Virus record (IMG/VR): IMGVR_UViG_3300009149_000086
Location: 1-41,994 of that record
DNA: 41,994 nt
Strand: one strand, 5' to 3'
DNA from: a virus
Shown here: positions 2 through 40,921 of the stretch, one piece after another
How positions within the stretch are numbered: the first letter of the stretch is position 1
Layout: the number at the start of each line of letters is the position of its first letter
Position numbers and translations under genes: made by a program
Notes under the pieces: generated by a model
What the model saw: only the letters and a program-made list of their open reading frames with translations
Told to the model about the DNA's origin: nothing
The model's database searches: none

Positions 2-2761
2 GGACCCGCATTTCAATCAGTATTCGTAACAAATTACGATGAATTTAAAACGTTCTTCGGTGGCCTTAATGCTACCAAGTTCAAAGATACTGGCTACCCA
101 AAGTACGAATTACCGTACATATCAAAATCATACCTATCACAATCAAATCAACTATTCGTAACTAGAATTCTTGGTTTTTCTGGATATGATGCTGGTGAAG
201 CATGGGGTATAACATTAGACGCAGCTTTAGACCCTAGTACTGTTGTTACCTCTACAGGTACAACTTATACTGGATTCTCAACTGATTCGCTTATAACTTA
301 CTCAGCAACAACTGGTGGTACCTTAGTATATGAGAGTGCTGAACCAATTGTTCAAGCATTGATTGATGATGGCGCTCTGACTTCAGACCTATCATTCCTT
401 TCAAACGCTTTATCTGGTACAACTACAAGTATAGATTGTACCTACGTTAAACTTGGTAACACTTTCAGTGGAGCTTCATTTAACTTATATGTAAGCGAGA
501 TTGTAACAGGTCTTAGTGGTGCGACAACAGGATATACTTCTGGTGTAACAACTACATGTACTGGTACATCATATACCGATGTGGACGATAAGATTGTAGC
601 ATTGCTACGTTCTAGAGGAGAGTACGGTGCAGAAGAAAACATTCAATTCGAAGTAACGGGTTCGACCTCAGCGGTTGACGATTATATTGAATTCGGTGCA
701 ACGCCAATTGATGCAGCAAGTGACCCATACGGTAACTTCGCACTATCAGGAAACGCGAGAACATTAGGAGCATTTAGCTACAACTGTTCATTTGACAAAA
801 CTAAGAGAAATTACCTACCTAAAGTATTGGGTAGAACAGAAAAAGATGGTAAGACTGCGGTATACGTAGAAGAACTTTACCAAAACATGATGGATAAGAA
901 TATTGAAGATGATAAGATTTACGGTATTAACCTTACACTTATTGACTATGCAACTGGATTACCACCATTTGATGACTACTTGGAAGAGTATCTTCCAGCG
1001 GTTTCTCCATACGTAGTTTCAGAACTTCGAGGAACTAACCTATTGAGATTGTTCAGACTTTGGACGATAGCTGATGGTGATTCTGCCAACCATCACGTTA
1101 AGATTTCTGTTACAAACATTAAGCCTGACGATAAAGAGTTCGATATTGAAGTTAGAAGCTTCTACGATACTGATGCTAACAAGGTTGTTCTTGAGAAGTA
1201 CTCACGATTAGTGATGGACCCAACCTCAAACAACTACATAGCTAAGAGAATTGGTACCCTTGACGGGAACTTTGCCTCTAAGTCTAGTTACATATTGGTT
1301 GAAATGGATGACACTTCAGATACTAGCGATACGTTCCCAGCAGGGTTCATCGGGGTACCTCAAAGAGATTACCATGAAGTGGCAAACAGTGGGGTTACAT
1401 TCCCAGACGTTTGTTACAAGCAAACTTACGGAACGTTCGAGAATAAGAGAAAAGCATACTTAGGTCTATCTAACATTGTTGGTATTGACCAAGACTTCTT
1501 CGACTACAAAGGACTTCCTAATGATTCAGACCTTTCAATGTGGACTGGTATCACTAAAGGATTCCACATGGATATTGACGCTACGGGCGCAACTATTGAT
1601 GGTGTGGAGGTTGTTTACAACTCATCAGGTGATACTTACTCACCAGTATTCTTATTCGACACAGGTAATGCTGAGTTCAGAACAGATGCTGGGATAGCTG
1701 GAACTGACTATGATAAGATTTACGCACGTAAGTTCACGTTTGCACCTTACGGTGGATTTGATGGATGGGACGTTTATCGAGATAGAAGAACTAATAAAGA
1801 TTTTTACCGAATCGATGGTACTAAAGGAGCTGAAGGTCTACTAAGTGGGTCATTCGCCAACAGAGCATTGACCAACGGTGATAACGGAATTACTTCCGAC
1901 TACTACGCTTACTTAGAGGCTATTTGGACATTCAACAACCCAGAATCTGTTAACATTAATGTGTTTGCGACTCCAGGAATTGATGACTTCGAAAACACCA
2001 ACTTGGTTGAAGAGACCATTGAGATGATTGAACAAGATAGAGCCGATTCACTATACATTGTTACAACACCAGACGTTGACGTTTCTGGAATCGTGTTGAC
2101 AGCAGAAGAAGTGGTGGAATCATTGGAGGACCAGTTCGACAGTAGTTATACTGCAACTTACTTCCCATGGGTTCAAGTCAATGACGCTGAAAACAACGTT
2201 TACATTTACTTACCAGTAACTAGAGACGTAGTAAGAAACATCGCCTTAACCGATAACATCGCATTCCCTTGGTATGCAGTTGCAGGTATTCAAAGAGGTA
2301 ATGTTGACGCAATCAAGGCTAGAGCTAAACTGACACTACAAGACAGAGACACTTTATACGCTGGAAGAGTTAACCCAGTTACTACCTTCGCATCTGACGG
2401 TATTAAGATTTGGGGTAACAAGACTCTTCAAGTTAAAGAATCTGCACTTGATAGAATTAATGTTAGAAGATTGTTACTACAAGCAAGAAAACTTATTTCT
2501 GCGGTATCTATTAGATTGTTATTCGAGCAAAACGATGACATCGTTAGAAACCAATTCCTTGGCCTAGTTAATCCTATTTTGGATAACATCAGGTCTGAGA
2601 GAGGACTTTCTGATTTCCGAGTTGAACTAGATGATACTCCAGAATCAAGAGACAGAAACGAGCTTTGTGGACGAATCTTCATCAAGCCAACGAGAGCTTT
2701 AGAGTTTATCTGTGTAGAATTCAACATTATGAACACTGGAGCATCTTTCGATGACATTTAA
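2..2761 (+). CDS. 18: Tail sheath protein, T4 gp18-like (5' partial)
   Basis: This is the contractile sheath that surrounds the tail tube and shortens on injection. The frame is open to the first base of the window, so the N-terminus lies outside and 919 residues are visible. The first visible residues, GPAFQSVFVTNYDEFKTFFG, match the usual sheath opening in which a GP..F/V.V.N..EF...FG pattern precedes a segment like YLSQSNQLFVTRILG. The C-terminal third (about residues 780-919) has the typical sheath core: RDTLYAGRVNPV, IKIWGNKTL, a long helix around INVRRLL, and a final strand region ending EFICVEFNIMN. The middle (about 40-600) is longer than in T4 gp18 (659 aa) and probably holds surface insertions rich in Thr, Ser, Gly and Asp. 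A strong terminator follows 22 nt after the stop. The family is clear; the exact length is not known. Confidence 0.93.
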   Translation, partial: GPAFQSVFVTNYDEFKTFFGGLNATKFKDTGYPKYELPYISKSYLSQSNQLFVTRILGFSGYDAGEAWGITLDAALDPSTVVTSTGTTYTGFSTDSLITYSATTGGTLVYESAEPIVQALIDDGALTSDLSFLSNALSGTTTSIDCTYVKLGNTFSGASFNLYVSEIVTGLSGATTGYTSGVTTTCTGTSYTDVDDKIVALLRSRGEYGAEENIQFEVTGSTSAVDDYIEFGATPIDAASDPYGNFALSGNARTLGAFSYNCSFDKTKRNYLPKVLGRTEKDGKTAVYVEELYQNMMDKNIEDDKIYGINLTLIDYATGLPPFDDYLEEYLPAVSPYVVSELRGTNLLRLFRLWTIADGDSANHHVKISVTNIKPDDKEFDIEVRSFYDTDANKVVLEKYSRLVMDPTSNNYIAKRIGTLDGNFASKSSYILVEMDDTSDTSDTFPAGFIGVPQRDYHEVANSGVTFPDVCYKQTYGTFENKRKAYLGLSNIVGIDQDFFDYKGLPNDSDLSMWTGITKGFHMDIDATGATIDGVEVVYNSSGDTYSPVFLFDTGNAEFRTDAGIAGTDYDKIYARKFTFAPYGGFDGWDVYRDRRTNKDFYRIDGTKGAEGLLSGSFANRALTNGDNGITSDYYAYLEAIWTFNNPESVNINVFATPGIDDFENTNLVEETIEMIEQDRADSLYIVTTPDVDVSGIVLTAEEVVESLEDQFDSSYTATYFPWVQVNDAENNVYIYLPVTRDVVRNIALTDNIAFPWYAVAGIQRGNVDAIKARAKLTLQDRDTLYAGRVNPVTTFASDGIKIWGNKTLQVKESALDRINVRRLLLQARKLISAVSIRLLFEQNDDIVRNQFLGLVNPILDNIRSERGLSDFRVELDDTPESRDRNELCGRIFIKPTRALEFICVEFNIMNTGASFDDI

Positions 2762-3341: not shown

Positions 3342-3715
3342 TGAAACGAAAAGTAATTATACGAGAGAGTCAACTGAAGAACTTGGTGGATTATATCAAA
3401 TCTAGGGTACTCAAAGAGGACGCACAAGACGTTTTAATGGGGTCTGCGGTGCTTTTAGGAGTAAAGCTTAGCGGTTTCAACGAAAAGATTGCAAAAGACG
3501 CTCTATCGTCTCCTAAAGTGCTTAACATGATTAAGACTAAATTAGAGTCTTCTGATATTAATGACATCGTTACTGGTTTAGAAGGGATGGGGATGAAAGA
3601 TGTGATGGGTAAACTAGAGAATGATAGGTATGAAATCCAAAAACGATTTGATGATATCGCCTTTGAAATCGATGGTGTAAAGGGCGGATTAGTCCTAAAT
3701 GTTGGCGACAATTAA
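3341..3715 (+). CDS. Small protein of unknown function, helical N-terminal motif
   Basis: A 124-aa protein of unknown function. It opens MKRKVIIRESQLKNLVDYIK, an 'xIxIxExQL' helix start also seen in the protein at 9434 (MRIKITEHQFNRILLED). Both reach an L-x-E motif followed by D (VLKED at 23-27 here), compatible with removal of an N-terminal targeting peptide by a prohead protease. The rest is mostly helical with many Lys, Asp and Met residues. It is coupled to the preceding gene by a TAATG overlap. Its last 21 bases overlap the 3' end of the minus-strand endonuclease gene, so insertion of that gene may have reshaped this C-terminus. Confidence 0.7.
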   Translation: MKRKVIIRESQLKNLVDYIKSRVLKEDAQDVLMGSAVLLGVKLSGFNEKIAKDALSSPKVLNMIKTKLESSDINDIVTGLEGMGMKDVMGKLENDRYEIQKRFDDIAFEIDGVKGGLVLNVGDN

Positions 3716-5347
3716 TTCGTAACGTATTGTACCACAATCATATATTCTATAAATACCTCTTTCTAACATTATCTGATGTTCGGTTTTGTTTTCGGTATCA
3801 TACCCATGTTTTGCTAAGGTATGTTTTCTAAATCCAAACCTATGTTTCCGATTTTTACCGATAATATACCAATAATTTGGTTTATTAGCGGTACTAGCAT
3901 CAAACCTCAAATTATCATATAATTGACCTTGACTCCATCGCCTATCAGCGTAGCTTATTATTTTGTTAGGTTTGTAATTCGATATGAAATGTTTCAATAA
4001 TTTACTAGCACCACCTATAACGCTGGTATCTAATAGGTTACAAAACCTACTAAGTTCATAATAATCACCAGCTTTACCTATACCTAATCTGGGCTTGGTG
4101 AATGTCATAATGCTAACCAATAGATTATTATTATATAACCCCATATTGACACTAGACCCAACAGTTCCTTGTATGTGATTTATATTTAAGAATTCTGTTT
4201 TATCTTTAGTTGACACTTCACGCACTTCACAATTCCTACCATAAATCCTACTATCGGTTAACCCTAATATATTTTTAAGTCTAGATTTAACTATTTCCTC
4301 CTTATTTAGCCACTCATCTTCAAATATATGTATTAATCGAATGTCCTGACTTTTACATGCTTCAGTTTTCTTCAAATGATAATCCTTTGATTTGAATTCC
4401 TCTGAGTGCCAATACAAGCCGTCAAATTCAATGGCCAATTTATGTGACGAGATATAAATATCTAACTCTAGGGGAGGTATAATATTTCTTGACGAGGTAA
4501 TCGTTGATAAGCCAATAGATTTTAGATAATCGTTCAACTCAATCTCAATATTAGATACTGATGAAGTACATTTGGAACAACCATGACCATCTAAGTGGTC
4601 ATACGTCACTTGTTTAAATTCGCCATGTGTCGGACACGTAATATTTAATTTATCATGAGTATTACGATAATTAATACCACTATACTTGTATTTATGCTCG
4701 TGTTTTCTATTTGCTATGTCTACAACATCAGTTATCGATAACGTTAATTTATTTCCAGCTAAGGAACGCCCACATAGAGGACACCCTTTACCCCTTAAGT
4801 GATTATAAGCCAATTGTTCAAAATCACCATGCGTTGGGCATGTAATGGTGACCATATCGGTATTCGTTACATATATTGTCTTCGAATAGTCGTATTTATT
4901 GTCATGTATTAAATTACATTTAGTAATATAATTATCAGTATTCGAATTATGTCTACTTGCCCTAGTTTTTATACCACATGTTGGGCAGCCTTGTCCCAAC
5001 ATATGGTTTGTCGGTAATTGTTTAAAATCCCCATGCTCATTACATATGACTACAACTTTAGTTGAACTATTAGCGTATGTAACCTTTGAGTAGTCATACT
5101 TATCACCATGTATTGACCTACACTTAACGATAAAACTATCGGTACTATATTTTGGGGACCGTTTACATAGATTACAACCACGTTTCCCCCTCAAATGTTC
5201 GGCTGGTGCCTGTGAGAACTCATTATCATGCTCAACACATCGTATAACTATTTTCGTAGTACTATTAACGTAGTTGATTTTTGAATAATCATACTTATCA
5301 CCATATTTCAAATCACATTTAGTAAGGAAGGTCATTAATTTATTCAC
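3695..5347 (-). CDS. Homing-type endonuclease: four DUF723-like zinc repeats plus Vsr-like (EDxHD) nuclease
   Basis: A 550-aa free-standing mobile endonuclease on the strand opposite the structural genes. Four repeats (about 7-61, 72-124, 140-192, 207-260) follow the pattern KYDYSK..Y.N...K..I.C..HG.F.Q....H..G.GC..C. Each has paired Cys/His zinc-ligand candidates, as in DUF723-type DNA-binding repeats. Residues 266-362 form a very-short-patch-repair-like nuclease core: E270, ELDIYI with D296, AIEFDGLYWHSE with D309 and H314, then LIHIFEDEW. Residues 370-550 are a conserved C-terminal module (ELSRFCN, GGASKLLKHFI, ISYADRRWSQG, IYRIYDCG) that accompanies such nucleases; its role is unknown. 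A paralogue lies at 35865-37484 minus. The gene has its own Bacteroidetes-type promoter. Nuclease function is inferred from motifs. Confidence 0.88.
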   Translation of the reverse strand: MNKLMTFLTKCDLKYGDKYDYSKINYVNSTTKIVIRCVEHDNEFSQAPAEHLRGKRGCNLCKRSPKYSTDSFIVKCRSIHGDKYDYSKVTYANSSTKVVVICNEHGDFKQLPTNHMLGQGCPTCGIKTRASRHNSNTDNYITKCNLIHDNKYDYSKTIYVTNTDMVTITCPTHGDFEQLAYNHLRGKGCPLCGRSLAGNKLTLSITDVVDIANRKHEHKYKYSGINYRNTHDKLNITCPTHGEFKQVTYDHLDGHGCSKCTSSVSNIEIELNDYLKSIGLSTITSSRNIIPPLELDIYISSHKLAIEFDGLYWHSEEFKSKDYHLKKTEACKSQDIRLIHIFEDEWLNKEEIVKSRLKNILGLTDSRIYGRNCEVREVSTKDKTEFLNINHIQGTVGSSVNMGLYNNNLLVSIMTFTKPRLGIGKAGDYYELSRFCNLLDTSVIGGASKLLKHFISNYKPNKIISYADRRWSQGQLYDNLRFDASTANKPNYWYIIGKNRKHRFGFRKHTLAKHGYDTENKTEHQIMLERGIYRIYDCGTIRYELIVANI

Positions 5348-5419: not shown

Positions 5420-5908
5420 ATGGCTGATTTATTGATGAAAATGCCCGTACCGTACGAGCCAAAGAAAAAGAACCGATGGATGCTTAGATTTCCATCAGAA
5501 TTGGGAATCCAAGAGTGGTGGTTAGCGTCATCATCTAGACCATCAATTACACAGAACGAAGTTGAAATTCCATTCTTGAACACATCAACATGGGTTATTG
5601 GTCGTTTTGTTTGGGAGTCTATCGATGTTACATTTAGAGATGCTATCGGACCTTCTTCCGCGCAAGCGATTATGGAATGGGTTCGATTACAATCTGAATC
5701 TGTTACAGGAAGACAAGGTTACGCTGCTGGATACAAGAAAGATATCGAACTAGAAATGCTTGACCCAACAGGAGTTGTCATTGAAAAGTGGGTACTTCAA
5801 GGTACAATGCTTACTAACGTTAACTTCGGTGACCTTAGTATGGATGACGATGCGATAGCTGATATTACTACAACACTCCGATTCGACAGAGCTATATTAT
5901 TGTTTTGA
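5420..5908 (+). CDS. 19: Tail tube protein, T4 gp19-like
   Basis: A 162-aa tail tube subunit that polymerises into the inner tube inside the sheath; T4 gp19 is 163 aa. Residues 18-60 (NRWMLRFPSELGIQEWWLAS, then VEIPFLNTSTWVIGRF) and 85-130 (EWVRLQSESVTGRQGYAAGY, then KKDIELEMLDPTGVVIEKW) carry the tube-protein signature. It ends with a strand pattern LTNVNFGDLSMDDDAIADIT leading to a final TTLRFDRAILL. The start follows an A-rich leader (AAAAACAAGAAAATG). In T4, genes 18 and 19 are adjacent; here two small genes and a minus-strand endonuclease separate them. A long hairpin terminator follows. Confidence 0.93.
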   Translation: MADLLMKMPVPYEPKKKNRWMLRFPSELGIQEWWLASSSRPSITQNEVEIPFLNTSTWVIGRFVWESIDVTFRDAIGPSSAQAIMEWVRLQSESVTGRQGYAAGYKKDIELEMLDPTGVVIEKWVLQGTMLTNVNFGDLSMDDDAIADITTTLRFDRAILLF

Positions 5909-6001: not shown

Positions 6002-6874
6002 ATGGGAAATATTAAGTGTAAGGAGTGTGATAATACATTCAAAAGTGTTGATTCTGTCAGAAGACATAGAGTCCAAAAACACGGCATATCTGCCGAACAG
6101 ACATACGTTGATTATATGTTAAATGGTAAGTACCCAACCTGTAAATGTGGTTGTGGTGAGAAACCTAATTTTTTATCCATCAGTAAGGGTTATGTTGATT
6201 ATATACGAGGTCATGCAGCCAGAGTTAATAATAATTGGGGTCATAACCCAGAAGCAATCCGAAAATCTCATGAAACTCAGAAGAAGATGCATACGTCAGG
6301 TGAATTGACGATGTGGAATAAAGGGTTAGATATCTCAGACCCTAGGGTTAAGAATAACGTTGATAAAATATTATCCAATCCTGATAGGGGTAATAATATC
6401 TCCAAAGCGTTAAGTGGTGTTGAGAAATCGGATGAACATAAGCTAGCCATATCAATAGCTGCTACCGAACGATGGTCAGACCCAAAGGAACGAGAAAAGC
6501 AGCGATATAGGCGATTAGAATATTTCACTAACAAAATGTTTAACGAAAAGTCTAAATTAGAAGTTAAATTTGAGGGGTTATTAATCGACTTAGGCGTAGA
6601 ATTTGATTCCCAATATTCAGTTAAAGGTTATCTATATGACATCTATGTGCCACATAAAAAATTATTAATAGAGGTGGATGGTGATTGGTACCATTTCAAT
6701 GAGTCCGTACATAAAAAACCATTATCACCAATTCAAATAAATAACCTTAAAAATGATGAACGTAAGAACGCTATAGCGGAAAAAGAGGGTTATACGTTAA
6801 TTAGGTTCTGGGAAAATGATATTAACAACAATACCAATAACGTAATTAACATACTTAAAGGTTTAATGAAATGA
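6002..6874 (+). CDS. Homing-type endonuclease with C2H2 finger and Vsr-like/DUF559-like nuclease domain
   Basis: A 290-aa mobile endonuclease. Residues 5-28 are a C2H2 zinc finger (CKECDNTF...HRVQKHG). A second Cys cluster (CKCGCGEK) is near 48-55. The middle (about 75-185) has repeated short helices with EAIRKSH and EHKLAISIAATERW, resembling NUMOD3-type DNA-binding modules. The C-terminal 100 residues form a nuclease core: KLEVKFEGLL, YLYDIYVPHKKLLIEVDGDW with a following YHF, then NDERKNAIAEKEGYTLIRFW. That is the E...D...E-x-D-G order of the Vsr/DUF559 branch of the PD-(D/E)XK fold. The start codon touches the T-run of the upstream terminator, so its transcription source is unclear. The stop overlaps the next gene by ATGA. 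Base composition is more AT-rich than in the tail genes, consistent with recent gain. Confidence 0.85.
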   Translation: MGNIKCKECDNTFKSVDSVRRHRVQKHGISAEQTYVDYMLNGKYPTCKCGCGEKPNFLSISKGYVDYIRGHAARVNNNWGHNPEAIRKSHETQKKMHTSGELTMWNKGLDISDPRVKNNVDKILSNPDRGNNISKALSGVEKSDEHKLAISIAATERWSDPKEREKQRYRRLEYFTNKMFNEKSKLEVKFEGLLIDLGVEFDSQYSVKGYLYDIYVPHKKLLIEVDGDWYHFNESVHKKPLSPIQINNLKNDERKNAIAEKEGYTLIRFWENDINNNTNNVINILKGLMK

Positions 6875-7653
6875 AATGTTGCACTAAATGTAAGGAAACT
6901 TTTGAATTATCTTACTTCGGTAAATCAAAACACAATACGGATGGGTTGTATCATTGGTGTAAAGGTTGTGTTAAAGCTGATAATAAAAAAAGACGTAATG
7001 TGGCGGATAAAGGTTTAATTTGGAAGCAGAGTTTATACGATAATAATGAGAAGTATTGTAGTGTATGTTCCAGTATAAAGAAATTTTCAGAATTTCATAA
7101 ACACAAACACTCAGTTTCAGGTTTTAGTTCCATGTGTAAGATTTGTAAACGAAAAAGTGACGCAAATTATAGACAAAAATTAAAAGATGATGGGGTTTAT
7201 AAAGAACGAAGGCGAAAACAATATCTAGATAATATTGACCAGTACCGTGAATATGGGTTAAAATACAATAAAAATGGTAGGGACTATAAACGTGAATACC
7301 AAAGAGTTCTAAAACTTAGAGATAAAAATCCGCTAGCTAAATTAAAAAATGCGTTAAGGAATAGGATATTAATAGCGATTAAGTATCATGGGTATAGGAA
7401 AAACTTAAGAACCGAAGAAATCTTAGGAGCTAAGTGGGGTATTGTAAAGTCACATATAGAGACTCAATTCACCGATGGTATGTCTTGGGGTAATCATGGT
7501 GAGTGGCATATAGACCATATTATATCACTTAAAACTGCAACTACGAAATCTGAGATGATTGAGCTTAACCACTATACCAATTTACAACCTTTATGGGCAA
7601 CGACTAGAGAGATTAACGGTACTCTATATGAAGGTAATCTTAATAAGGGATAA
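6871..7653 (+). CDS. HNH homing-type endonuclease with paired zinc-binding motifs
   Basis: A 260-aa HNH nuclease. The N-terminus has two CxxC pairs around CCTKCKETF...F...WCKGC (3-33). A second similar unit follows (CSVCSSIKKFSEFHKHK...MCKICKR, about 63-98). Both look like zinc-binding HNH-accessory domains. A Lys/Arg-rich helix covers about 100-165. The catalytic region is near the C-terminus: WHIDHIISLKTA (about 212-223), then LNHYTNLQPLWATTREING, the usual H-N-H order. The ATG overlaps the stop of the preceding endonuclease gene (ATGA), so the pair forms one small operon and a single inserted cassette. Translation probably depends on reinitiation from the upstream gene. Confidence 0.88.
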   Translation: MKCCTKCKETFELSYFGKSKHNTDGLYHWCKGCVKADNKKRRNVADKGLIWKQSLYDNNEKYCSVCSSIKKFSEFHKHKHSVSGFSSMCKICKRKSDANYRQKLKDDGVYKERRRKQYLDNIDQYREYGLKYNKNGRDYKREYQRVLKLRDKNPLAKLKNALRNRILIAIKYHGYRKNLRTEEILGAKWGIVKSHIETQFTDGMSWGNHGEWHIDHIISLKTATTKSEMIELNHYTNLQPLWATTREINGTLYEGNLNKG

Positions 7654-7811: not shown

Positions 7812-8075
7812 ATGAGCAAATTTGTACAACTAAGCAAAACTGAAATCTACGAGAATTTCGATGTGCCATATATCAGACAACTGATTGAATATACCGATAA
7901 TCAATACCCAATTAGACTTAAAACGACAATTCATAAAGCATTGTTCGAAGAGGTAGAAACACAAGAAGTGGTTCAACCAGAAAACAAAAAGCAAATGTCT
8001 AAAGAACAAGAGATGGTGAACATCCCAAAAGACTTGTACGAGCAAATGCTAAAGTATATGAAGAGTCAAGAATAA
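7812..8075 (+). CDS. Small unknown protein before tail-assembly gene
   Basis: An 87-aa protein I do not recognise. It is hydrophilic and predicted helical, with Tyr/Ile/Glu-rich patches (TEIYENFDVPYIRQLIEYT near 10-28). A Gln/Glu/Lys-rich linker (about 47-66) and a short C-terminal helix (KDLYEQMLKYMKSQE) follow. There is no membrane segment or metal motif. It begins after an A-rich leader (AAAGTAACACACTATG) and ends 21 nt before the tail-assembly gene, so the two are probably cotranscribed. It may be a small tail-assembly factor, but only position supports that. Confidence 0.65.
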   Translation: MSKFVQLSKTEIYENFDVPYIRQLIEYTDNQYPIRLKTTIHKALFEEVETQEVVQPENKKQMSKEQEMVNIPKDLYEQMLKYMKSQE

Positions 8076-8096: not shown

Positions 8097-9107
8097 ATGG
8101 CAACAGAAAAAAGACCAAATGTGCTTCCTCAAAATTTGGGGAAACCAAAAGTAGAAGAACCTACAACACACGGGTCTGGTGTTTCAACTGCGGAAATGGA
8201 GTCAGCTCAAGCAATGCTTGAGGCTACTCGTAAGCAGATGGAAGAAATGAATACCCAACCAGAACAATTACAAGCAGCTCAATTAGAGGCTGTACCATCA
8301 GAAATACCATTATCGCCATTGGCTGGAACCAACTATGCTCCAGACTTAAGCGCAAGATATGGTGACATGATGACCCCTAAATGGGATTCACCTTATGACT
8401 TAATTCCTTTACCATCTAAAGGTAAACTATATCAAGGCGTAAAAGATAAGGTTATGGTTTCATATATGACGGGTTCTGATGAGAACATCCTAACATCTCC
8501 AAATCTAATAGAAAGTGGGGATTTCTTAGAGATTCTAATGAGTCGGAACCTTCTAGAGAAGAATTTAAAATATAACGACCTACATTTAGGTGATAGAAAC
8601 GCTATCATGATTTGGTTAAGAGGGACGGCATTCGGAAATATGTACCCAGTATCTGTTTACAGTAAAACTGGTGAGATAGTAGAAGACGTTGTTAACCTTT
8701 CTGAGTTGAAGTATATTCCTCTTGGAGCTGAACCAGACGAACAAGGTCAATTTGACTTTACATGTCCTAAAAGTAATGACAAACTTAAGTTTACTTTCCT
8801 AACTGTCGGTGATGAAAATTATATCGAAGATAAACTAGTAAAGAAACAAGAAGCAGGTGTTGAGATTAATAATCGCTCAACGTACACCCTAACGAGACAA
8901 ATAGAATCTGTTAACGGTAATTCCGATTCAGAATATTTGACTAACTATATCAAGAACATGAGACTAACCGACATCAAGGCGTTTAGAAATTATGTGGATG
9001 AAATCGAATCAGGTATAGACTTAAAAATCGAAGTGAAGACGGCTGGGGGTGCAACCGTCAGCACGTTTCTTCCCCTTAACCTCAAGTTTTTTTGGCCTGA
9101 CATCTGA
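8097..9107 (+). CDS. Tail/baseplate hub assembly protein, T4 gp26/gp51-type region (zero-frame product)
   Basis: A 336-aa protein with a disordered Gln/Glu/Met/Pro-rich N-terminus (about 1-90). From about 95 a conserved core follows: YDLIPLPSKGKLYQGVKDKV, YMTGSDENILTSPNLIESGD, FLEILMSRNLL. This pattern (SKGxxY..., DENIL) belongs to the T4-type baseplate/hub-assembly family placed before tape measure genes. The zero frame ends LKFFWPDI, but seven T residues at 9087-9093 lie just before the stop, and the +1 frame continues with a sequence that resembles the rest of the family. The protein therefore probably exists in a short form (336 aa) and a frameshifted form (about 430 aa), as with the lambda G/GT tail chaperones. 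The exact T4 equivalent is uncertain. Confidence 0.8.
   Translation: MATEKRPNVLPQNLGKPKVEEPTTHGSGVSTAEMESAQAMLEATRKQMEEMNTQPEQLQAAQLEAVPSEIPLSPLAGTNYAPDLSARYGDMMTPKWDSPYDLIPLPSKGKLYQGVKDKVMVSYMTGSDENILTSPNLIESGDFLEILMSRNLLEKNLKYNDLHLGDRNAIMIWLRGTAFGNMYPVSVYSKTGEIVEDVVNLSELKYIPLGAEPDEQGQFDFTCPKSNDKLKFTFLTVGDENYIEDKLVKKQEAGVEINNRSTYTLTRQIESVNGNSDSEYLTNYIKNMRLTDIKAFRNYVDEIESGIDLKIEVKTAGGATVSTFLPLNLKFFWPDI
9087..9093 (+). promoter_or_regulatory. Putative programmed ribosomal frameshift site (TTTTTTT)
   Basis: In the zero frame this reads AAG TTT TTT TGG, with the stop TGA at 9105-9107. The downstream frame is +1 relative to the zero frame, equivalent to -2. A phenylalanine tRNA can re-pair on TTT in either direction within the T-run. 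Only five codons remain before the zero-frame stop. Confidence 0.65.
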
Positions 9108-9390
9108 ATACCAGAAGTGGTTCGAGGAGGAAGTTTTCATGTGTGTTAAACACATAGGATTTACTTATCAAGATGTGTTGTCTATGCGTACTAGCACTAG
9201 ACGACATCAACTGACTTTACTCATAAACGAACAGACAGCTAAGAGGGAGCATATTGAAGATGAGCAGCACAAACATTCTAATTCTAGCAAGAGGGGCGAG
9301 AGGACCTCAAAAGTGGGTGGGGATATGTTAAAAGCTGAACTTAAAAACCCTAATTCTAAATTAGGTAATATGATTCGCGGACAAAACTAA
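9094..9390 (+). CDS. Frameshift extension of the tail-assembly protein (+1 frame)
   Basis: The visible continuation is 98 aa, beginning GLTSEYQKWFEEEVF and running through CVKHIGFTYQDVLSMRTSTRR. It resembles the C-terminal part of tail-assembly/gp51-type proteins, which carry a (P/S)EYxxxxxEEVFxxVKHxGFTxxDVLxM pattern. The similarity starts upstream of any sensible in-frame ATG. The ATG at 9049 lies deep inside the zero-frame gene. The ATG at 9139 falls inside the conserved helix, although a GAGGAGG sequence 8 nt before it would make a good Shine-Dalgarno site in other hosts. The best reading is a fusion with the 8097 frame through the T-run; separate initiation at 9139 (83 aa) is the alternative. 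The tail is Lys/Asn-rich. It ends 43 nt before the next gene. Confidence 0.7.
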   Translation, partial: GLTSEYQKWFEEEVFMCVKHIGFTYQDVLSMRTSTRRHQLTLLINEQTAKREHIEDEQHKHSNSSKRGERTSKVGGDMLKAELKNPNSKLGNMIRGQN

Positions 9391-9433: not shown

Positions 9434-10723
9434 ATGAGAATCAAAATAACCGAACATCAATTTAATAGAATACTGTTGGAGGACTCGTCTGAGGGTATAT
9501 TCTATGACCTTAACGATGGTGATAATATTGCCTTTGTTAGTGGTGGTGATAACCTATCATTTAAAGTGATAGACCAAACCGATAATGCAATATGGATGAC
9601 CAGCAATGATAAGGGGTCGGTCCATACTTCTTTCACATATCTATTAGCCAAAAGTGAGAAACTAGACGATAATAATATAACATTATTCAGGTACCAACCA
9701 AGTAAGGGGGAATCACAAGAGGATAAGAAACAATTTACGTTCAACACCGTAACTAAGGTAGACGTATACGATTATAGGGGTAAACTTAAAGACAGTTACA
9801 CCGTTGGTGGTGAGGAGGACGATGGTGAAGATAATGTTGGCTATAATCTAGTTGATGTCCTTGCAGAATTCTCTAGTATGAAAGTGGACGATAGGTACTT
9901 TTTCGAATTAGATAATGGGACCAATGTACTATTCAAGGTATTAGATAAATCTAATGCTGAAGCAAAGCTTAAGTTAGTCTCTGTAAATGGTTCAGACAAA
10001 GCCACTTATGAGCCTTTAAAAGGTCAAACATTTACATTAAGATTTGATGCAGATAGTTTAGCCGCTTCTGAATCAACACCTAAAGGTATTGATGTAGTAT
10101 TTACCGATGAGTCTGGTAATCCTTTAAAATTGTCCGACATTAAGGATTGGGGAGATTATTACTCTACAATACAAGATGTTAATCCAGATAGCGATACTGG
10201 CGAATTATCAGATACAATGTCTAAGGATGAAATCCTAAACACTATTATGTCTAATCCAGTGCTTAGAGACACGTTCTATAAGCAACCAAAGCTTATGGGA
10301 TTCATAAATTCTGGCGAACCAGTTGGTATTGCCACAGCTAATCAAATATTAGCTAAGTTCAAGTCACAGTCTACAAATGGTGAGGAGGATAAATCAACCA
10401 ATAATGCGAACTTCAAGAATTTCAAGAATGGTAAAAAGGTAAGTTTCCGACTGATGAGTGATGTTATGTTCTCATTCGGAAATGGTGCCGATAGTATTAA
10501 ATTAGAGGCTGGTAATTCATATCAAGGAAAGGTGTTTAAAGATGAGAAAAATACATATCTAAAGAGTGATGAGGGTAGTAAAAAGTGGTCGATAATGTTG
10601 AAATCATCGGTTGGTAATCACAAATATGATGCTAATATTAAAGCCTATGTTAAGGGTAAATACGGTAAACTAGATGAGCAAAATAAGAATATCCAGATAA
10701 GAGTAACTAATTATAATGGATAA
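9434..10723 (+). CDS. Unknown protein upstream of tape measure, duplicated beta-type domain
   Basis: A 429-aa protein I cannot assign. It starts MRIKITEHQFNRILLED, the same kind of helical 'IxITExQ...LxED' opening as the protein at 3341, with L-L-E/D as a possible prohead-protease site. Two similar segments follow: about 25-70 (DGDNIAFVSGGDNLSFKVID) and about 155-195 (DDRYFFELDNGTNVLFKVLD), suggesting an internal duplication of a beta-rich domain. An acidic Glu/Asp linker (GGEEDDGEDN) sits between them near 135. A helical segment (about 258-310, KDEILNTIMSNPVLRDTFYK) and a C-terminal beta region (about 335-429) complete it. The last 8 bases overlap the tape measure start, so the two are probably coupled. 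A virion or tail-assembly role is likely from position only. Confidence 0.75.
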   Translation: MRIKITEHQFNRILLEDSSEGIFYDLNDGDNIAFVSGGDNLSFKVIDQTDNAIWMTSNDKGSVHTSFTYLLAKSEKLDDNNITLFRYQPSKGESQEDKKQFTFNTVTKVDVYDYRGKLKDSYTVGGEEDDGEDNVGYNLVDVLAEFSSMKVDDRYFFELDNGTNVLFKVLDKSNAEAKLKLVSVNGSDKATYEPLKGQTFTLRFDADSLAASESTPKGIDVVFTDESGNPLKLSDIKDWGDYYSTIQDVNPDSDTGELSDTMSKDEILNTIMSNPVLRDTFYKQPKLMGFINSGEPVGIATANQILAKFKSQSTNGEEDKSTNNANFKNFKNGKKVSFRLMSDVMFSFGNGADSIKLEAGNSYQGKVFKDEKNTYLKSDEGSKKWSIMLKSSVGNHKYDANIKAYVKGKYGKLDEQNKNIQIRVTNYNG

Positions 10724-13205
10724 GTATAGTAAAGAAGAGTTAAGGGAGATTGGTCGGCTTGTCAAGGACAATGCTGAGAACACCGCTAAGATGGAGAAGA
10801 GTATCCAAGGATACGTTCAAGGCATCAAGGCGATTGGTCAAGAACAAGCTCGTATAAAACACTTAAAAGAACAAGAGGTTAAGCTGAGTGAGGAGATAAA
10901 CACTCTTTCGGCCCAGCGTAAGAAATTATTGGATGAGGAGCACGGTTTAGAGGGCACTGCGTTAACTGCGGCAACCAAAAGACGTAGCATACTCGAAAAC
11001 CAACTATCGACAGCACAAGCATTGGCTGCGGCTAATGCGGCTAACTTAGTTACGGCTAAGGCAACTTTAGCAACACAAACACAATTAGCCAATCAAGCTA
11101 ACGGTATGACACTCGCCTATAACCAAATGGGCGATACGTGGAATAGGCTTCCAGGATTAGCTAAGAAATTCTATGGTTGGATTAAAGGGTTTGAAGCCCT
11201 TGAGATGTCTAAGGAGATTAAGAAGGCCGAGCTTTCTATGGGTATCCTTTCGAACCAATCTAAGTTCTTCGGAAAGACTATGATGAACGCTTCACAAACT
11301 ACCCAACAACTCGGTGTTAGTGTTAGCGACTTAGCAATAGCTCAAAGAGGATATGCTGATGAAATTGGTCGTGGGGTAATTCTAAGTGAGAGTGAACTCC
11401 AAGCAATGGCCGAAATTGGTAAAGGTACTATGCTTGGTATGGAAGGTGCTGTTGGTATGGCTGCCGCAATGGAAAACTTCGGTCTAAATGCCACGGCAGC
11501 AAGAGATGGAGTTCAAGAAACTGTTGATATAGCTCACAAGATGGGCGTCAACGCAAACAGTGCAATTAAAGAATTAGGTAAGACACTCAAACTAGCTCAA
11601 CGCTACCACTTTAAGGGTGGAGTTAAGGGTATGGCATCTATGGCTAATTATGCCGCTATGATGAAGATGGACATGGAAGGTGTGGCTGGCATGGCCGATA
11701 AAGCTTTTAGACCTGAAGGTGCTGTTGAAATGGCTGCTCGTTTAGCTACTATGGGTGGGGATTTTGCAAAAATAGGAGACCCGTTCACTTTAATGTTCAA
11801 GGCTAGAAATGATTTTGAAGGTTTTGCCAAAGATGTTGGTGATGCCACGGCTGAGTTTGCACAATTCAATAAGAAGACAGGTGAATTTGATATTACTGGA
11901 CTTCAATTGGATAGAATTAAAGAGATTGGTGAGATTACAGGTATAGGTGCCGAGAATATGGCTGAAATGGCCAAACAATCGGCTAAGTTTAATATGCTAA
12001 AATCTCAAGTAAACTTCGCTGTCGCTGACGAGGATAGGGAGATGATAGCGCATATGGCAAATTTCGATAAAGATTCTGGTCAATGGATGGTACAATTCGA
12101 TGGTAAGAAACAACTATTGAGTGATATGAATAAAGCTGATTTGGAAACCTATAGAAGAGAACAAAAATCACTTAAAGAAAGAGCCGAACAAGCACAAACC
12201 TTTGACGAGGCATATACTAATCTAACAATGCAATTCAAGACGATGGCACTACCATTCATTGAGTCGTTGAATACTGGATTGGTACAGCCCATGATTAAGT
12301 TCCAAGAACAGATGAAAGGTTCTGAATTTTTGGAGAATGTTAGAAATCTAGGAGCTAGTTTAGGTAAATTCGTTGGTGCTGTTGGTGGGTTTATATTGGA
12401 ATTCCCTAAATTATCATTAGCTATAGCTGCTGGTGGAACCATTTTCTTCAATCTTGGTAAATGGTATGCTAACGGTAAGATGCTAGGCATGGGATTCAAT
12501 TCGGTAGCTAACGCTGGAGGTGGTAGTATGATGGACATGCTTCCAGGTGGTAAAAGTATGAGAGTGGGCGGCAAGATGATGAGGGGTGGTAAGATGTTGA
12601 AGGGTGCTAGTACAATGATAAAGGGTGCTGGTAAGTTTGCAGCTCCATTAGCTGTCGCTGGTATGGGTATGGACGCTTACAGTAACTCCCAAGATGATAG
12701 TTTAAGTGGAGGTCAGGCATTTGCTAAGACTTTAGACCAAAACAAATTAGCTATTTTAGGTGGAATCATAGGTGCATTGGGAGGACCAGCAGGTGTCGCA
12801 GCAGGTATTGGTCTTGGTGGAATGGCTGATATGGCATTGAATGGTGTTGCTGGTGATGATGCATTAATTGGACATCATACTGGTGACTATAACATGAATG
12901 ATGGTATCATTAAATTCAATCCTCAAGATAAATTCTTGAAGATGAATGATGGGTTGGTTGCCTCTACTGATAAAGGTAAAATTGATGATATTGCTAAAAC
13001 TTCCAAAAGTGGTGGTTCTGGTGGTAAAATTACCTTTGGTGACTTGAAGATTAAAGGTACTATTAAGATTGATATGCCTGATGGTAAAGATATGTCTGTA
13101 GATTTGACTAAAGACCCATTCTTTATTAGAGAAATCACCAAACTAATTCAGGAACAATTGAGGACAGATATTGGTGGTGGTAAGTTGAATCCTAATCCTA
13201 TGTAA
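10716..13205 (+). CDS. Tape measure protein
   Basis: An 829-aa protein that sets tail length and later leaves through the tube. Residues 1-130 are coiled-coil-like and Lys/Glu/Gln/Ala-rich. The middle (about 150-530) is helical with many Ala/Met/Gly turns. Hydrophobic stretches occur at about 565-590 (LGKFVGAVGGFILEF, LSLAIAAGGTIFF) and 685-720 (KLAILGGIIGALGGPAGVAA), separated by a Gly/Met-rich basic segment (GGKSMRVGGKMMRGGKMLKG). These are typical of tape measures, which insert in the membrane. The C-terminal 60 residues (DLKIKGTIKIDMPDG...) are probably the hub-binding end. At about 1.5 angstrom per residue a fully helical ruler would give a tail near 120 nm, longer than T4. It follows the frameshifted assembly gene, as tape measures usually do. 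Confidence 0.87.
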   Translation: MDKYSKEELREIGRLVKDNAENTAKMEKSIQGYVQGIKAIGQEQARIKHLKEQEVKLSEEINTLSAQRKKLLDEEHGLEGTALTAATKRRSILENQLSTAQALAAANAANLVTAKATLATQTQLANQANGMTLAYNQMGDTWNRLPGLAKKFYGWIKGFEALEMSKEIKKAELSMGILSNQSKFFGKTMMNASQTTQQLGVSVSDLAIAQRGYADEIGRGVILSESELQAMAEIGKGTMLGMEGAVGMAAAMENFGLNATAARDGVQETVDIAHKMGVNANSAIKELGKTLKLAQRYHFKGGVKGMASMANYAAMMKMDMEGVAGMADKAFRPEGAVEMAARLATMGGDFAKIGDPFTLMFKARNDFEGFAKDVGDATAEFAQFNKKTGEFDITGLQLDRIKEIGEITGIGAENMAEMAKQSAKFNMLKSQVNFAVADEDREMIAHMANFDKDSGQWMVQFDGKKQLLSDMNKADLETYRREQKSLKERAEQAQTFDEAYTNLTMQFKTMALPFIESLNTGLVQPMIKFQEQMKGSEFLENVRNLGASLGKFVGAVGGFILEFPKLSLAIAAGGTIFFNLGKWYANGKMLGMGFNSVANAGGGSMMDMLPGGKSMRVGGKMMRGGKMLKGASTMIKGAGKFAAPLAVAGMGMDAYSNSQDDSLSGGQAFAKTLDQNKLAILGGIIGALGGPAGVAAGIGLGGMADMALNGVAGDDALIGHHTGDYNMNDGIIKFNPQDKFLKMNDGLVASTDKGKIDDIAKTSKSGGSGGKITFGDLKIKGTIKIDMPDGKDMSVDLTKDPFFIREITKLIQEQLRTDIGGGKLNPNPM

Positions 13206-32039: not shown

Positions 32040-32126
32040 TAAGCGTTTAAAGCGCATTTCTTGACAATATGAGCGAAAGCGGATACCATATTGTACGGGA
32101 TAATATTTTCTTTAAAAACAAAATTA

Positions 32127-35100
32127 ATGAAAGGAACAAAAATACTGTCTGATATTAAATTCTACAATGATTACTCGAAATACGATGAGGTCCTTGATAG
32201 AAAGCAGACATGGGAAGAGAAGGTTGAAATGGTTATGGATATGCACCGCCAGAACCCAAAATTTAAGAGTGCATTTGAAAACCCACAATTTGTGGGTTTC
32301 TTCGATGAGGCGGTAGAAGCATATAAGGATAAGCTAGTATTAGCGTCACAACGCTCACTACAATTCAGTGGTAAGCCAATCATGAAACATAACGCTAAGA
32401 TGTACAACTGTACTGTGTCATACTGTGACAGAAGTAGAGTATTCCAAGAGGCTATGTATATGTTGTTATGTGGGTGCGGTGTTGGTATGTCATTCATGAA
32501 AGAACACGTAGTTAAAATGCCTACGATTTCTAAAAGAACAAACGGAACTAAGACATATGTAATCGAAGACTCAATCGAAGGATGGGCTGATGCGGTTGGT
32601 GTATTGATGTCGTCATATTTTGACAGTGACCATACGTTTCCAGAATATGAAAATAGTGTGGTACACTTTGATTATTCACAGATAAGACCTAAAGGTGCGT
32701 TAATTTCTGGAGGCTTCAAAGCTCCTGGACCTGATGGCTTAAAACAGTCGCTTGAGAGGATTGAAACATTGATGGAGGGTGTAGTTACCGATGCACCTGC
32801 GAAGTGGCGCCCAATCGTGGCTTATGACGTTCTAATGCATTGTTCTGATGCAGTGTTGAGTGGTGGAGTTAGACGTTCAGCGACTATCGCATTATTCAGT
32901 CACGATGACGAAGAAATGATGAACGCTAAGACGGGTGACTGGCTTGGAGAAAATCCACAAAGAGCGAGGTCTAACAATTCAGTTGTTTTGATAAAGGACC
33001 AGATTGAAAGATTGGCATTTGATGAGATTTTTAAGGCCACTAAAGAGTTCGGAGAGCCAGGATTTGTGTTCTCAGAATCGCATGAGGTCGTATATAATCC
33101 TTGTGTTACTAAGGACACTACAGTATTAACGTCTGATGGTGTTAGAACTGTCGAAGAACTAATAGGGAAAGAATTCAAAGCCGTTGTAGATGGTAAAGAA
33201 TACGACACGCTATCTGAAGGATTCTGGAAAACTGGAGTCAAGCAAGTATACGAATTATCTACTTTAGAGGGTAATAAACTTAGATTAACTGACAATCATA
33301 AATTATTATGTGTTAATAATGACGGTAATGAAGAGTGGGTAGAACTTAAAGATATAGAGATAGGTGGTAAAATTAAGTTAAATCGGCATACCGATTATTC
33401 TTGGGGTGGAGACGATGAGAAAGATACTCAAAGAGGATGGTTATTGGGTAGTTTAGTTGGAGATGGAACATTTGATGATACATCGGCAATATTGAGATAT
33501 TGGGGTGGAGACGATAGCGTTAAAGAACAGGCGGTATCCTATTTGAATGACAATTATAAGAAAGCTAAAACGTTAGTGGGTACCACATATAAAGACATAT
33601 TAAGTATCTATAGTTCTGGTTTAGCGGAAGAAGCTAGCGAATATGGTATTATTAGGAACGATAAAACCCCTAATGTGGAGTTAGAAAGAGAGTCGTCTAA
33701 CTTCCTTATAGGATATTTAAGGGGGTTATTTGACGCTGATGGGTCAATGCAAGGAACCCAAATTAAAGGTGGGTCAGTGAGGTTAACGCAGGTTAATTTA
33801 GAAATACTGGAACAAGTCCAGCGTATTTTATTAAGATTAGGTATTAATACTACCATATATAAGAATAGGCGGGATGCTGGTTGGTATAGTTTACCAGACG
33901 GAAAAGGTGGTATGGCTGATTATTATTGTAAAGCGGTACACGAATTAATAATATCTAAGGTAAATATAATAACCTTTAACGATAGAGTTGGGTTTTCAGT
34001 TACCGAAAAGCAAAATAAGTTAAGTAAATTCATATCTAATTATAAGCGTAAACCCAATAAAGATAATTTTACTGTAACAGTCGCCTCAATTATTGAAGAT
34101 GGTATTGAAGATGTTTATGATGTTACAGTGGATGAAGTACATAGATTTGATGCTAATGGTATAGTCGCCCATAATTGCGTGGAAATAGGTATGGTTCCTA
34201 GAACCGAAGATGGTAGAAGTGGGTGGCAAGTATGTAACCTAACTGAAATCAATGGTGGTAAATGTGATGATGCTGAGACCTTCTATAAGGCTTGTGTTGC
34301 GTCAGCGTTTATCGGTACACTACAAGCATCTTATACTGACTTTAGATACCTGACACCAGAGAGTAAAGAAATCTGCGATAGAGAGGCTCTAATTGGATGT
34401 TCTATCACAGGGTTTATGAATAACCCTAAGATATTATTTGACCCAGAGATTCTTGAAAATGGTGCGAATATGATTAAAGAAATTAACGCAGTTATTTCAA
34501 AGATGATTGGTATTAATAAAGCAGCAAGAACTACTTGTGTTAAACCTAGTGGAAACGCTTCTGTATTGTTAGAGACTACATCTGGAATTCATGGTGACCA
34601 CTCTAAGAACTACTTCCGTATTATGCAAATTAATAAGGAGGAAGAAATTGCTCAATATCTTAACAACAAATATCCAGACCTTATCGAGGACTCTGTGTGG
34701 TCATCTACAAATGCCGACTACGCTTTGTTTGTTCCGATTAAAGCTGATAAGAAAACTAGACTTAAAGAGGACCTATTGGGTGTTAAACAATTGGAGTATG
34801 TTAAGTTAGTTCAACAACATTGGGTGGAAACAGGTACTAACGAAAACTTATGTTTGATTCCAGAAGTTCGTCACAATGTATCTAATACTATCACAGTGGA
34901 TAACTGGGAAGAAGTACAAGAATATATTTGGGAAAACAAGAAGTGGTTCTCAGGTATTAGTCTATTATCTCATCATGGTGATAAAGTATTCAACCAAGCT
35001 CCGTTTACTGAAGTGTTGCAAGTTGATGAAATCATCGATAAGTATGGTCACGCATCAATGTTTGTTTCGGGATTAATTGTAGACGCACTTCACCTGTTCG

Positions 35101-35420
35101 ATAACAACCTGTGGAAAGCATGTGACTACCTAGTAAACTCCGAACTACCAATTGAAGGTACTAGGCAATCAGTTCTATTGAAGAAAGACTGGATAAGTAA
35201 AGCCAAGAAATTCGGTAAGAAGCACTACCAAGATGTACAAGAGCTAACATTCTGTATGAAGGATGTGCATTTGGCCCATAAGTGGATGAAGACCAGTCGG
35301 TCAATCGGAAACTTGGACGTTGCACCTATTTTGGAGAAGATAAAGCCAGAATATGTAGAAGTGAACAAATTCTCTGCTGTTGCTTGCAGTGGTGGAAGTT
35401 GTGAAATTACGTATTTATAA
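32127..35420 (+). CDS. nrdJ: Class II (adenosylcobalamin-dependent) ribonucleotide reductase containing an intein
   Basis: The precursor is 1097 aa; after removal of a 358-aa intein the enzyme is about 739 aa, the size of monomeric B12-dependent reductases of the Lactobacillus leichmannii type. It makes deoxyribonucleotides. Visible features: KMYNCTVSYC with the first redox Cys, MLLCGCGVGMSF, SGGVRRSATIALFSHDD, and the catalytic N-P-C-x-E motif rebuilt across the splice junction (NP before the intein, CVEIG after). Later come TCVKPSGNASVLLETTSGIHG and a C-terminal CSGGSC (CX4C) thiol pair for re-reduction. I start at the ATG at 32127 after an A-rich leader; the frame is open to a TTG at 32091, which is less likely. 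No second subunit gene is nearby, as expected for class II. A strong terminator follows. Confidence 0.92.
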   Translation: MKGTKILSDIKFYNDYSKYDEVLDRKQTWEEKVEMVMDMHRQNPKFKSAFENPQFVGFFDEAVEAYKDKLVLASQRSLQFSGKPIMKHNAKMYNCTVSYCDRSRVFQEAMYMLLCGCGVGMSFMKEHVVKMPTISKRTNGTKTYVIEDSIEGWADAVGVLMSSYFDSDHTFPEYENSVVHFDYSQIRPKGALISGGFKAPGPDGLKQSLERIETLMEGVVTDAPAKWRPIVAYDVLMHCSDAVLSGGVRRSATIALFSHDDEEMMNAKTGDWLGENPQRARSNNSVVLIKDQIERLAFDEIFKATKEFGEPGFVFSESHEVVYNPCVTKDTTVLTSDGVRTVEELIGKEFKAVVDGKEYDTLSEGFWKTGVKQVYELSTLEGNKLRLTDNHKLLCVNNDGNEEWVELKDIEIGGKIKLNRHTDYSWGGDDEKDTQRGWLLGSLVGDGTFDDTSAILRYWGGDDSVKEQAVSYLNDNYKKAKTLVGTTYKDILSIYSSGLAEEASEYGIIRNDKTPNVELERESSNFLIGYLRGLFDADGSMQGTQIKGGSVRLTQVNLEILEQVQRILLRLGINTTIYKNRRDAGWYSLPDGKGGMADYYCKAVHELIISKVNIITFNDRVGFSVTEKQNKLSKFISNYKRKPNKDNFTVTVASIIEDGIEDVYDVTVDEVHRFDANGIVAHNCVEIGMVPRTEDGRSGWQVCNLTEINGGKCDDAETFYKACVASAFIGTLQASYTDFRYLTPESKEICDREALIGCSITGFMNNPKILFDPEILENGANMIKEINAVISKMIGINKAARTTCVKPSGNASVLLETTSGIHGDHSKNYFRIMQINKEEEIAQYLNNKYPDLIEDSVWSSTNADYALFVPIKADKKTRLKEDLLGVKQLEYVKLVQQHWVETGTNENLCLIPEVRHNVSNTITVDNWEEVQEYIWENKKWFSGISLLSHHGDKVFNQAPFTEVLQVDEIIDKYGHASMFVSGLIVDALHLFDNNLWKACDYLVNSELPIEGTRQSVLLKKDWISKAKKFGKKHYQDVQELTFCMKDVHLAHKWMKTSRSIGNLDVAPILEKIKPEYVEVNKFSAVACSGGSCEITYL
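33102..34175 (+). mobile_element. Intein with LAGLIDADG homing endonuclease, in the reductase active site
   Basis: 358 codons in frame. Residue 1 is Cys (CVTKDTTVLTSDG, block A). Block B is RLTDNHKLL (T-x-x-H). Two LAGLIDADG motifs are present: GWLLGSLVGDG (Asp at intein residue 121) and YLRGLFDADG (Asp-Ala-Asp, last Asp at 213). Block F/G is VYDVTVDEVHRFDANGIVAHN, ending His-Asn. The +1 residue is Cys, which is also the reductase radical cysteine. All residues needed for class 1 splicing are present and the endonuclease motifs keep their acidic residues, so both activities are probably intact. Boundaries are set by C1 and HN/C+1 and by the rejoined NPCVEIG motif. Confidence 0.93.
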
Positions 35421-37484: not shown

Positions 37485-37501
37485 ACCTTCTAACGCATAC
37501 T

Positions 37502-37509
37502 TATAAATA
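37502..37509 (-). promoter_or_regulatory. TATTTATA octamer on the minus strand before the endonuclease
   Basis: The late octamer in the orientation of the endonuclease gene, 17 nt before its ATG and just downstream of its host-type -7 box. It may add late expression or may be chance in an AT-rich leader. Confidence 0.4.
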
Positions 37510-37513
37510 TACA

Positions 37514-37544
37514 CAAATATACAAAAAATTATTGACATTGACAA
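37514..37544 (-). promoter_or_regulatory. Bacteroidetes-type promoter for the second minus-strand endonuclease
   Basis: On the minus strand, TTG (37544-37542), 20-nt spacer, TATATTTG (37521-37514): a full TTG-N20-TAnnTTTG match about 30 nt before the ATG at 37484. Confidence 0.75.
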
Positions 37545-40399: not shown

Positions 40400-40921
40400 A
40401 TGAGTTGTGGAATCTATAAAATTATTAATGATGTTGATGGTAAGATGTATATAGGTAGCTCAATCACGTTAGGTAAAAGATTAAAACATCATGAATATAG
40501 GTTGTTATCTAATGCTCACCATAACAACTATTTACAGAATTCTGTAAATAAGTACGGTATCGATAAATTTAGGTTTGAAATTATCGAAGAATGTAATGAA
40601 GATAATTTAGTAGATAGAGAGAATTATCATATTAAACTTAATAAAGCTAACGATTCGACATTTGGATTTAACTTAGCTACAGTTAACGAATTTAGACGTA
40701 ATTGCTATAATAATGAGGTTAAAGTAAAAAATTCTAAACTAGGGTTGAAACTGAACGGTAATTTCACTAAATTTAAAGCCATTAATGTCGATACTGATGA
40801 TGAAATGATATTTGATAATTTAGTGGATGCTGCAACCTACTTGATACAGGAAGGGTTTATAACCGCTAAAAAGGCTGTGCTTAGCAAAGAATTTCCGAAT
40901 GTCTTAGAGGTATTAAGATAA
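40400..40921 (+). CDS. GIY-YIG homing-type endonuclease
   Basis: A 173-aa nuclease of the segA/I-TevI type. The N-terminal GIY-YIG domain covers about 1-95: GIYKI at 4-8, KMYIGSS near 15-21, LGKRLKHHEYRLLS with the conserved Arg (about 24-37), KYGIDKFRFEIIEEC (about 52-66), then a Glu-containing helix LVDRENYHIKLNKA. The C-terminal 75 residues contain a NUMOD-like DNA-binding segment (FKAINVDTDDEMIFDNLVDA, then ATYLIQEG). It directly follows the HNH gene, so two unrelated nucleases lie in tandem between gp6 and the membrane-protein gene. No terminator separates them. Confidence 0.9.
   Translation: MSCGIYKIINDVDGKMYIGSSITLGKRLKHHEYRLLSNAHHNNYLQNSVNKYGIDKFRFEIIEECNEDNLVDRENYHIKLNKANDSTFGFNLATVNEFRRNCYNNEVKVKNSKLGLKLNGNFTKFKAINVDTDDEMIFDNLVDAATYLIQEGFITAKKAVLSKEFPNVLEVLR

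Follow-up and report, generated by a model that had tools for sequence, protein, structure and literature searches.

A probable tail-chaperone gene in two reading frames

The window, that is, the whole 41,994-nucleotide stretch of viral DNA that was analysed, carries a probable tail-chaperone gene divided between two reading frames (8097-9390, + strand). This architecture, the site at which the frames meet and the homology of the gene are established by the sequence itself. The zero-frame ORF (8097..9107, +) encodes a short product of 336 residues with a gp26-like tail-assembly chaperone domain of the PF12322/phrog_150 family and ends ...KFFWPDI. From position 9084 its codons are AAG TTT TTT TGG CCT GAC ATC TGA, the proposed slip site being a run of seven T (T7, 9087..9093, +) read in frame 0 as TTT TTT TGG. 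With 9090-9092 as P-site codon and TGG (9093-9095) as A-site codon, +1 reading would restart at GGC 9094 and enter a second ORF of 98 residues plus stop (9094..9390, +), the C-terminal domain of a long gp51-like fusion. Its translation is GLTSEYQKWFEEEVF...GFTYQDVL, up to the stop at 9388-9390. The zero-frame stop TGA (9105..9107, +) lies four sense codons past the slip codon, a distance of 3-7 in relatives. The window has no canonical -1 heptamer X_XXY_YYZ followed by an ORF at -1.

The gene lies in a tail region in which sheath (359..2761, +) and gp19-like tube (5420..5908, +) genes were recognized by family matches. Two genes (6002-7653, +) separate the tube gene from a small ORF (7812-8075) just before the two-frame gene; the first is endonuclease-like and the second (6871-7653) has no family match. 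Downstream, a 429-aa gene (9434-10723) precedes the probable tape measure (829 aa, 10716..13205, +), which is identified by position and composition and is without a family match; in two relatives (L007 and L011) an annotated tape measure follows soon downstream of the two-frame gene. An overlapping ORF pair between the major tail protein and tape measure genes is thus present, in an order that includes endonuclease-like genes after the tube gene and one extra gene before the tape measure. An initial sequence-only reading had recognized a zero frame that ends soon after T7 and a conserved domain that runs on in +1, both of which are confirmed; its count of five codons after the T-run is corrected to four sense codons past the second TTT, and its placement of the gene before the tape measure is amended by the intervening 429-aa gene.

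Several probable mobile endonuclease genes are dispersed in the tail region of the window (3695-5347, -; 6002-7653, +; 35865-37544, -; 40400-40921, +), the endonuclease-type families being DUF559, GIY-YIG and DUF723/DUF4379 zinc-finger repeat proteins. A ribonucleotide reductase with a B12-type insertion domain (32091-35420) is split by a LAGLIDADG intein.

Frame offset and slip motif in relatives

Relatives were collected by profile search (80 IMG/VR loci and three MAG contigs), a second profile adding 80 more on partly overlapping contigs. Each junction was assigned a frame by scoring all three against a profile of the shifted domain. ORF length was rejected as the sole criterion: it miscalled 13 TTT TTT TGG loci as -1, the opposite ORF being slightly longer. 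The domain lies at +1 in 122 of the 145 distinct junctions sorted, at a shared Phe-Phe (or Phe-Leu) position. The +1 sites comprise TTT TTT TGG (104), TTT TTT TAC (6), TTT CTT TGG (5), TTC TTT TGG (2) and single variants; an in-frame YTT_T is almost always kept among the variants, and the T run is exactly seven long in 110 of the 122. Of 67 divergent +1 representatives, 62 have TTT as their slip codon, a bias with a nominal chance of 10^-9.7 given each gene's own Phe usage and ignoring relatedness. The close relatives L002 and L003, with 74% identity in the N-part, share the offset and the last 14 codons before the stop, and at about 30% identity L006 and Microcystis phage Mel-JY01 still retain TTTTTTTGGCCT. 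Flavobacterium phage immuto has TTTCTTTGGCCT at the junction and a non-homopolymer TTTCTTTGG site; the genomes of immuto and Mel-JY01 are complete isolate genomes with the +1 architecture. Between the window and its nearest relative, L003, most differences (43 of 67) affect third codon positions in the +1 frame, which evolves as coding sequence under purifying selection.

The domain lies at -1 in twelve junctions, all of the form GTA/ACA/GCA AAT TTC TTC/T TGG and containing the canonical heptamer A_AAT_TTC (among them L110, truncated and with a score of only 1.4 bits). In the tree this -1 clade (support 100/100) is nested within the main +1 group (100/90). Among distant T4-superfamily phages, cyanophages, vibriophage nt-1, Atu_ph07 and Stenotrophomonas phage Mendera have a -1 domain with T_TTT_TTC; each of the Firmicutes and jumbo-phage sites is based on a single genome. 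In the Ackermannviridae loci L191 and L194 the shifted domain is at -1 by position, no canonical heptamer was found, and neither was counted as support; the junction with the gp51-like C-part is TAATG in L191 and includes no ATG in L194. Programmed frameshifting is inferred because frame offset and slip motif change together.

A +1 slip and its alternatives

On comparative evidence only, it is very likely that this T4-related phage expresses the gene by a +1 slip of the P-site tRNA-Phe. Most ribosomes would remain in frame 0 and terminate at 9105, yielding the short gp26-like product. A minority would slip with tRNA-Phe on UUU 9090-9092 and UGG in the A site; the tRNA would re-pair on the overlapping UUU and decoding would resume at GGC 9094, giving a gp51-like fusion 430 aa long (...NLKFF-GLTSEYQKWF...). 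If lambda G/GT is a guide, the tape measure may be coated by the short form, and the long form, which would be rarer, may use its helical C-domain to recruit a tail or hub component. That ribosomes actually slip, that they do so by +1 and not -2, the product ratio and the chaperone role are all inferred, without protein, ribosome profiling or reporter data. Release factor 2 genes have CUU_U and, in a minority, UUU_U at the P site (PMC5009743), and UUU-pyrimidine sites are reported to be prone to +1 slips in E. coli (Schwartz and Curran 1997). Against the model, the A-site codons in some relatives are TAC or TTC, which are not rare, and no Shine-Dalgarno sequence of the release factor 2 type was seen upstream of the window site, where the sequence is CTTAACCTCAAG.

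A -2 slip on the T-run, as in Mu, would add one Phe (KFFF-GL). On T7 it would re-pair as well as a +1 slip and lead into an identical downstream frame. However, at TTC TTT_TGG (L027, L064) and TTC TTT_CGT (L012) it would leave a middle-position mismatch where +1 pairs well, and the resemblance to YUU_U sites of the release factor 2 type favours +1 (PMC5009743). Direct evidence against -2 is confined to these TTC TTT_T/C variants at three loci; a -2 slip is considered unlikely.

Slippage of RNA polymerase on the T-run could leave some mRNAs one U short and place the fusion in frame, and the constancy of the seven-T run is in its favour. Nevertheless, the +1 frame is also used by eight relatives whose T runs are just 3-4 long, the -1 clade has changed to a ribosomal heptamer, and a covarying hairpin lies downstream of the site in part of the +1 group. 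This explanation therefore appears very improbable.

The C-part might instead be a separate gene, begun at a GTG (9049..9051, +) in the +1 frame, at an ATG (9139..9141, +), or by re-initiation past the zero-frame stop. In favour of this, the GTG is available and is the sole possible upstream start in the window, an ATG overlaps the gp26 stop in several distant -1 relatives (Vibrio nt-1, Vibrio 1.244, Mendera and Rhizobium I34), and annotators call the C-part a gene of its own (in the records inspected, the C-half is either a separate small gene or unannotated). Yet in 30 of the 67 divergent +1 relatives the part of the +1 ORF that precedes the slip contains no ATG, GTG or TTG, and in 26 of the 67 a start is also lacking from the first 15 codons past the slip. 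Furthermore, conservation starts at the slip point, and frame and slippery motif covary. The C-domain is predicted to form three helices, the first starting at residue 4 past the slip, so that a start at 9139, which lies inside that helix and is not conserved, would truncate the domain. Separate expression is accordingly rated very unlikely.

Finally, a sequencing error or a decayed gene might be suspected in a homopolymer, homopolymers being error-prone. This is all but excluded by the same offset at 122 distinct loci, by isolates with non-homopolymer sites and by purifying selection on both parts.

The claim of the sequence-only reading, a programmed frameshift in a tail-assembly gene upstream of the tape measure, is thus strongly supported by comparative evidence; of the two slips it allowed, +1 is favoured over -2 and remains unproven for the T7 site itself. 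Its statement that conservation begins before any plausible start codon held in part: the window alone offers the GTG, and many relatives have no upstream start. None of the observations that it had named as potential refutations, among them a conserved homologue of the ATG at 9139 and loss of the T-run in relatives with separate genes, was made, and the relatives that lost the T-run acquired a -1 site instead. The alignment of homologues that it had proposed as a check finds the T-run/YTT_T site and the +1 offset conserved.

A covarying hairpin downstream of the site

Of 61 divergent +1 representatives, 11 carry a hairpin (7-bp stem, 4-nt loop) that begins 7 nt past the slip codon. Shuffling of the arms gave a mean of 1.5 and a maximum of 6 in 2000 shuffles; slid registers gave 0-1, and any other stem position of equal length gave at most 3. 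The arm pairs are compensatory (GGGCCTA/TAGGCCC, GGGCTTA/TAAGCCC, GGGCTTG/CAAGCCC, GGTCCTA/TAGGGCC and GCCTCTA/TAGGGGC), some of the changes altering the encoded amino acids. It seems likely that the hairpin stimulates the slip in this subset; it is absent from the window, and upstream of the slip no clear excess of structure was found. The carriers include L020, L041, L056, L054, L066 and others, in which the hairpin occupies nucleotides 7-24 past the slip codon, inside the two-frame overlap, and uses the otherwise rare codons AGG, CCC and GGG.

Relationship to T4 gp26 and gp51

Matches to PF12322 (T4_baseplate) and phrog_150, a family that holds both gp26 and gp51 of T4, were obtained with relatives of the N-part. 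Against the PF12322 cut-off of 24.5 bits, L006 scores 39.8 (5e-10), L039 30.7 and L097 100.4 (1.5e-28). The window protein itself has no Pfam match and only a weak match to phrog_150 (E 0.018); it is tied to PF12322 through these relatives. T4 gp26 and the N-part of Bacillus phage SP-15 cover the phrog_150 profile to position 235, and gp51 goes on to 280 of 282. In profile comparisons the C-domain matches the short cyanophage gp51 (E 1.4e-6, probability 90), which in turn matches the tail of T4 gp51 (E 1.2e-9, probability 96); the direct comparison of the C-domain with T4 gp51 is weak (probability 41), and the cyanophage intermediates are needed. In an alignment of conceptual fusions all FF slip points fall in one column, at which T4 gp26 ends (EFFELL) and gp51 continues.

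In cyanophages KBS-M-1A, P-SSM2 and P-HM2, vibriophage nt-1 and Mendera, the end of gp26 reads ...T_TTT_TTC_Gxx_stop and is followed by a short 'gp51' in the -1 frame. The C-domain profile picks this frame in the first four (17-27 bits versus at most 2 in the other frames), but not in Mendera, for which the assignment is based on position and alignment. It is therefore probable, with the C-domain linked through cyanophage intermediates, that the short product is the counterpart of gp26 and the long one that of gp51, as with lambda G and GT. Cyanophage and marine vibriophage gp51 proteins have been described as being without about 200 N-terminal residues (Sullivan et al. 2010, PMC3037559), and a frameshift would furnish the missing residues from gp26. 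The literature counts T4 gp26 and gp51 among the hub assembly chaperones (PMC3004832); their role there is in hub assembly, and direct binding to the tape measure has not been shown. In Citrobacter phage Moon (L106, 850 onward) annotators combined gp27 with gp28 into a 'GT-like fusion protein'; the present comparisons suggest that the G/GT pair is gp26/gp51 rather than this annotated fusion.

The N and C parts were modelled separately, the joint alignment of both being misaligned. In the PDB the N-part model comes closest to 2ob9, the HK97 tail assembly chaperone, though only weakly (E 0.49, probability 0.47); a fold search with the C-domain gave nothing significant, and a sequence search of solved structures found no relative. 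Searched alone against Pfam and PHROGs, the window C-part has only sub-threshold matches, to DUF6760 (E 0.12) and phrog_1957 (0.041). The +1 C-part of L095, on an Actinomycetes MAG contig, reaches E 7.2e-4 against DUF6760, also below the cut-off. Kinship between the C-domain and DUF6760 is possible.

Evolutionary scenario and comparison with known systems

A bolder reading combines these observations and, taken as a whole, is likely. A single frameshifted gp26-51 gene would be ancestral to the T4 superfamily, and the direction of the shift would have switched between +1 (UUU_U, CUU_U) and -1 (A_AAU_UUC, U_UUU_UUC) at a fixed Phe-Phe position. T4 would have put a pair of paralogues, genes 26 and 51, in its place, the cyanophage 'truncated gp51' would be the shifted half, and the covarying hairpin would stimulate +1 shifting in part of the group. 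Two oddities would thereby be accounted for, that gp26 and gp51 are members of one family and that cyanophage gp51 is short of its first 200 residues, and gp26 and gp51 would gain a testable role. Moreover, a natural series in which one gene changes its frameshift direction is useful for the study of how +1 and -1 sites evolve. No report of a frameshift in gp26/gp51 genes was found in the openly licensed literature searched, although one may already have been published. The new elements are the gene family, the occurrence of a UUU_U/CUU_U site within a phage tail gene, the +1/-1 switching and the link to T4 gp26/gp51.

Frameshifted tail chaperones using -1, -2 or +1 are already known, and +1 sites have been described in Listeria phage PSA and release factor 2 and very likely occur in halovirus HSTV-2 (PMC5009743); the suggestion in the sequence-only reading that a poly-T site would represent a distinct mechanism was accordingly overstated. 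The PSA sites (CCC_UGA, ACA_CCC_UCC) are likewise +1 sites in phage structural genes, but they involve a proline codon and lie in the major tail and capsid genes. As at the release factor 2 site, a P-site YUU would slip onto UUU; unlike that site, the A-site codon is UGG rather than a stop and no Shine-Dalgarno stimulator is apparent. The product ratio is presumed to be constant, in contrast to the autoregulated ratio of release factor 2.

The gene resembles lambda gpG/gpGT and related tail-assembly chaperone genes (Xu, Hendrix and Duda 2004; PMC5009743) in its overlapping ORFs between tube and tape measure genes, its short and frameshifted long products and a conserved slip site close to the end of the first ORF. 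It differs in belonging to the PF12322 family, without significant similarity to gpG or gpT being seen, and in its +1 shift at UUU_U/CUU_U instead of -1 (-2 in Mu). The short 'gp51' of cyanophages and vibriophages similarly consists of the C-domain only, directly past gp26 in a different frame, but uses the -1 frame with T_TTT_TTC; it was described only as missing its first ~200 residues and not as a frameshift product (PMC3037559). T4 gp26 and gp51 share the N-part family, and the C-terminus of gp51 matches the shifted domain via the cyanophage proteins; in contrast to the window gene, they are encoded by two separate, divergently transcribed genes without a frameshift. G/GT frameshifting has been reviewed as conserved in long-tailed phages 'except T4' (PMC5009743). 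The present data suggest that this exception is merely apparent: relatives of T4 would frameshift the chaperone gene, and T4 would have both products as separate genes.
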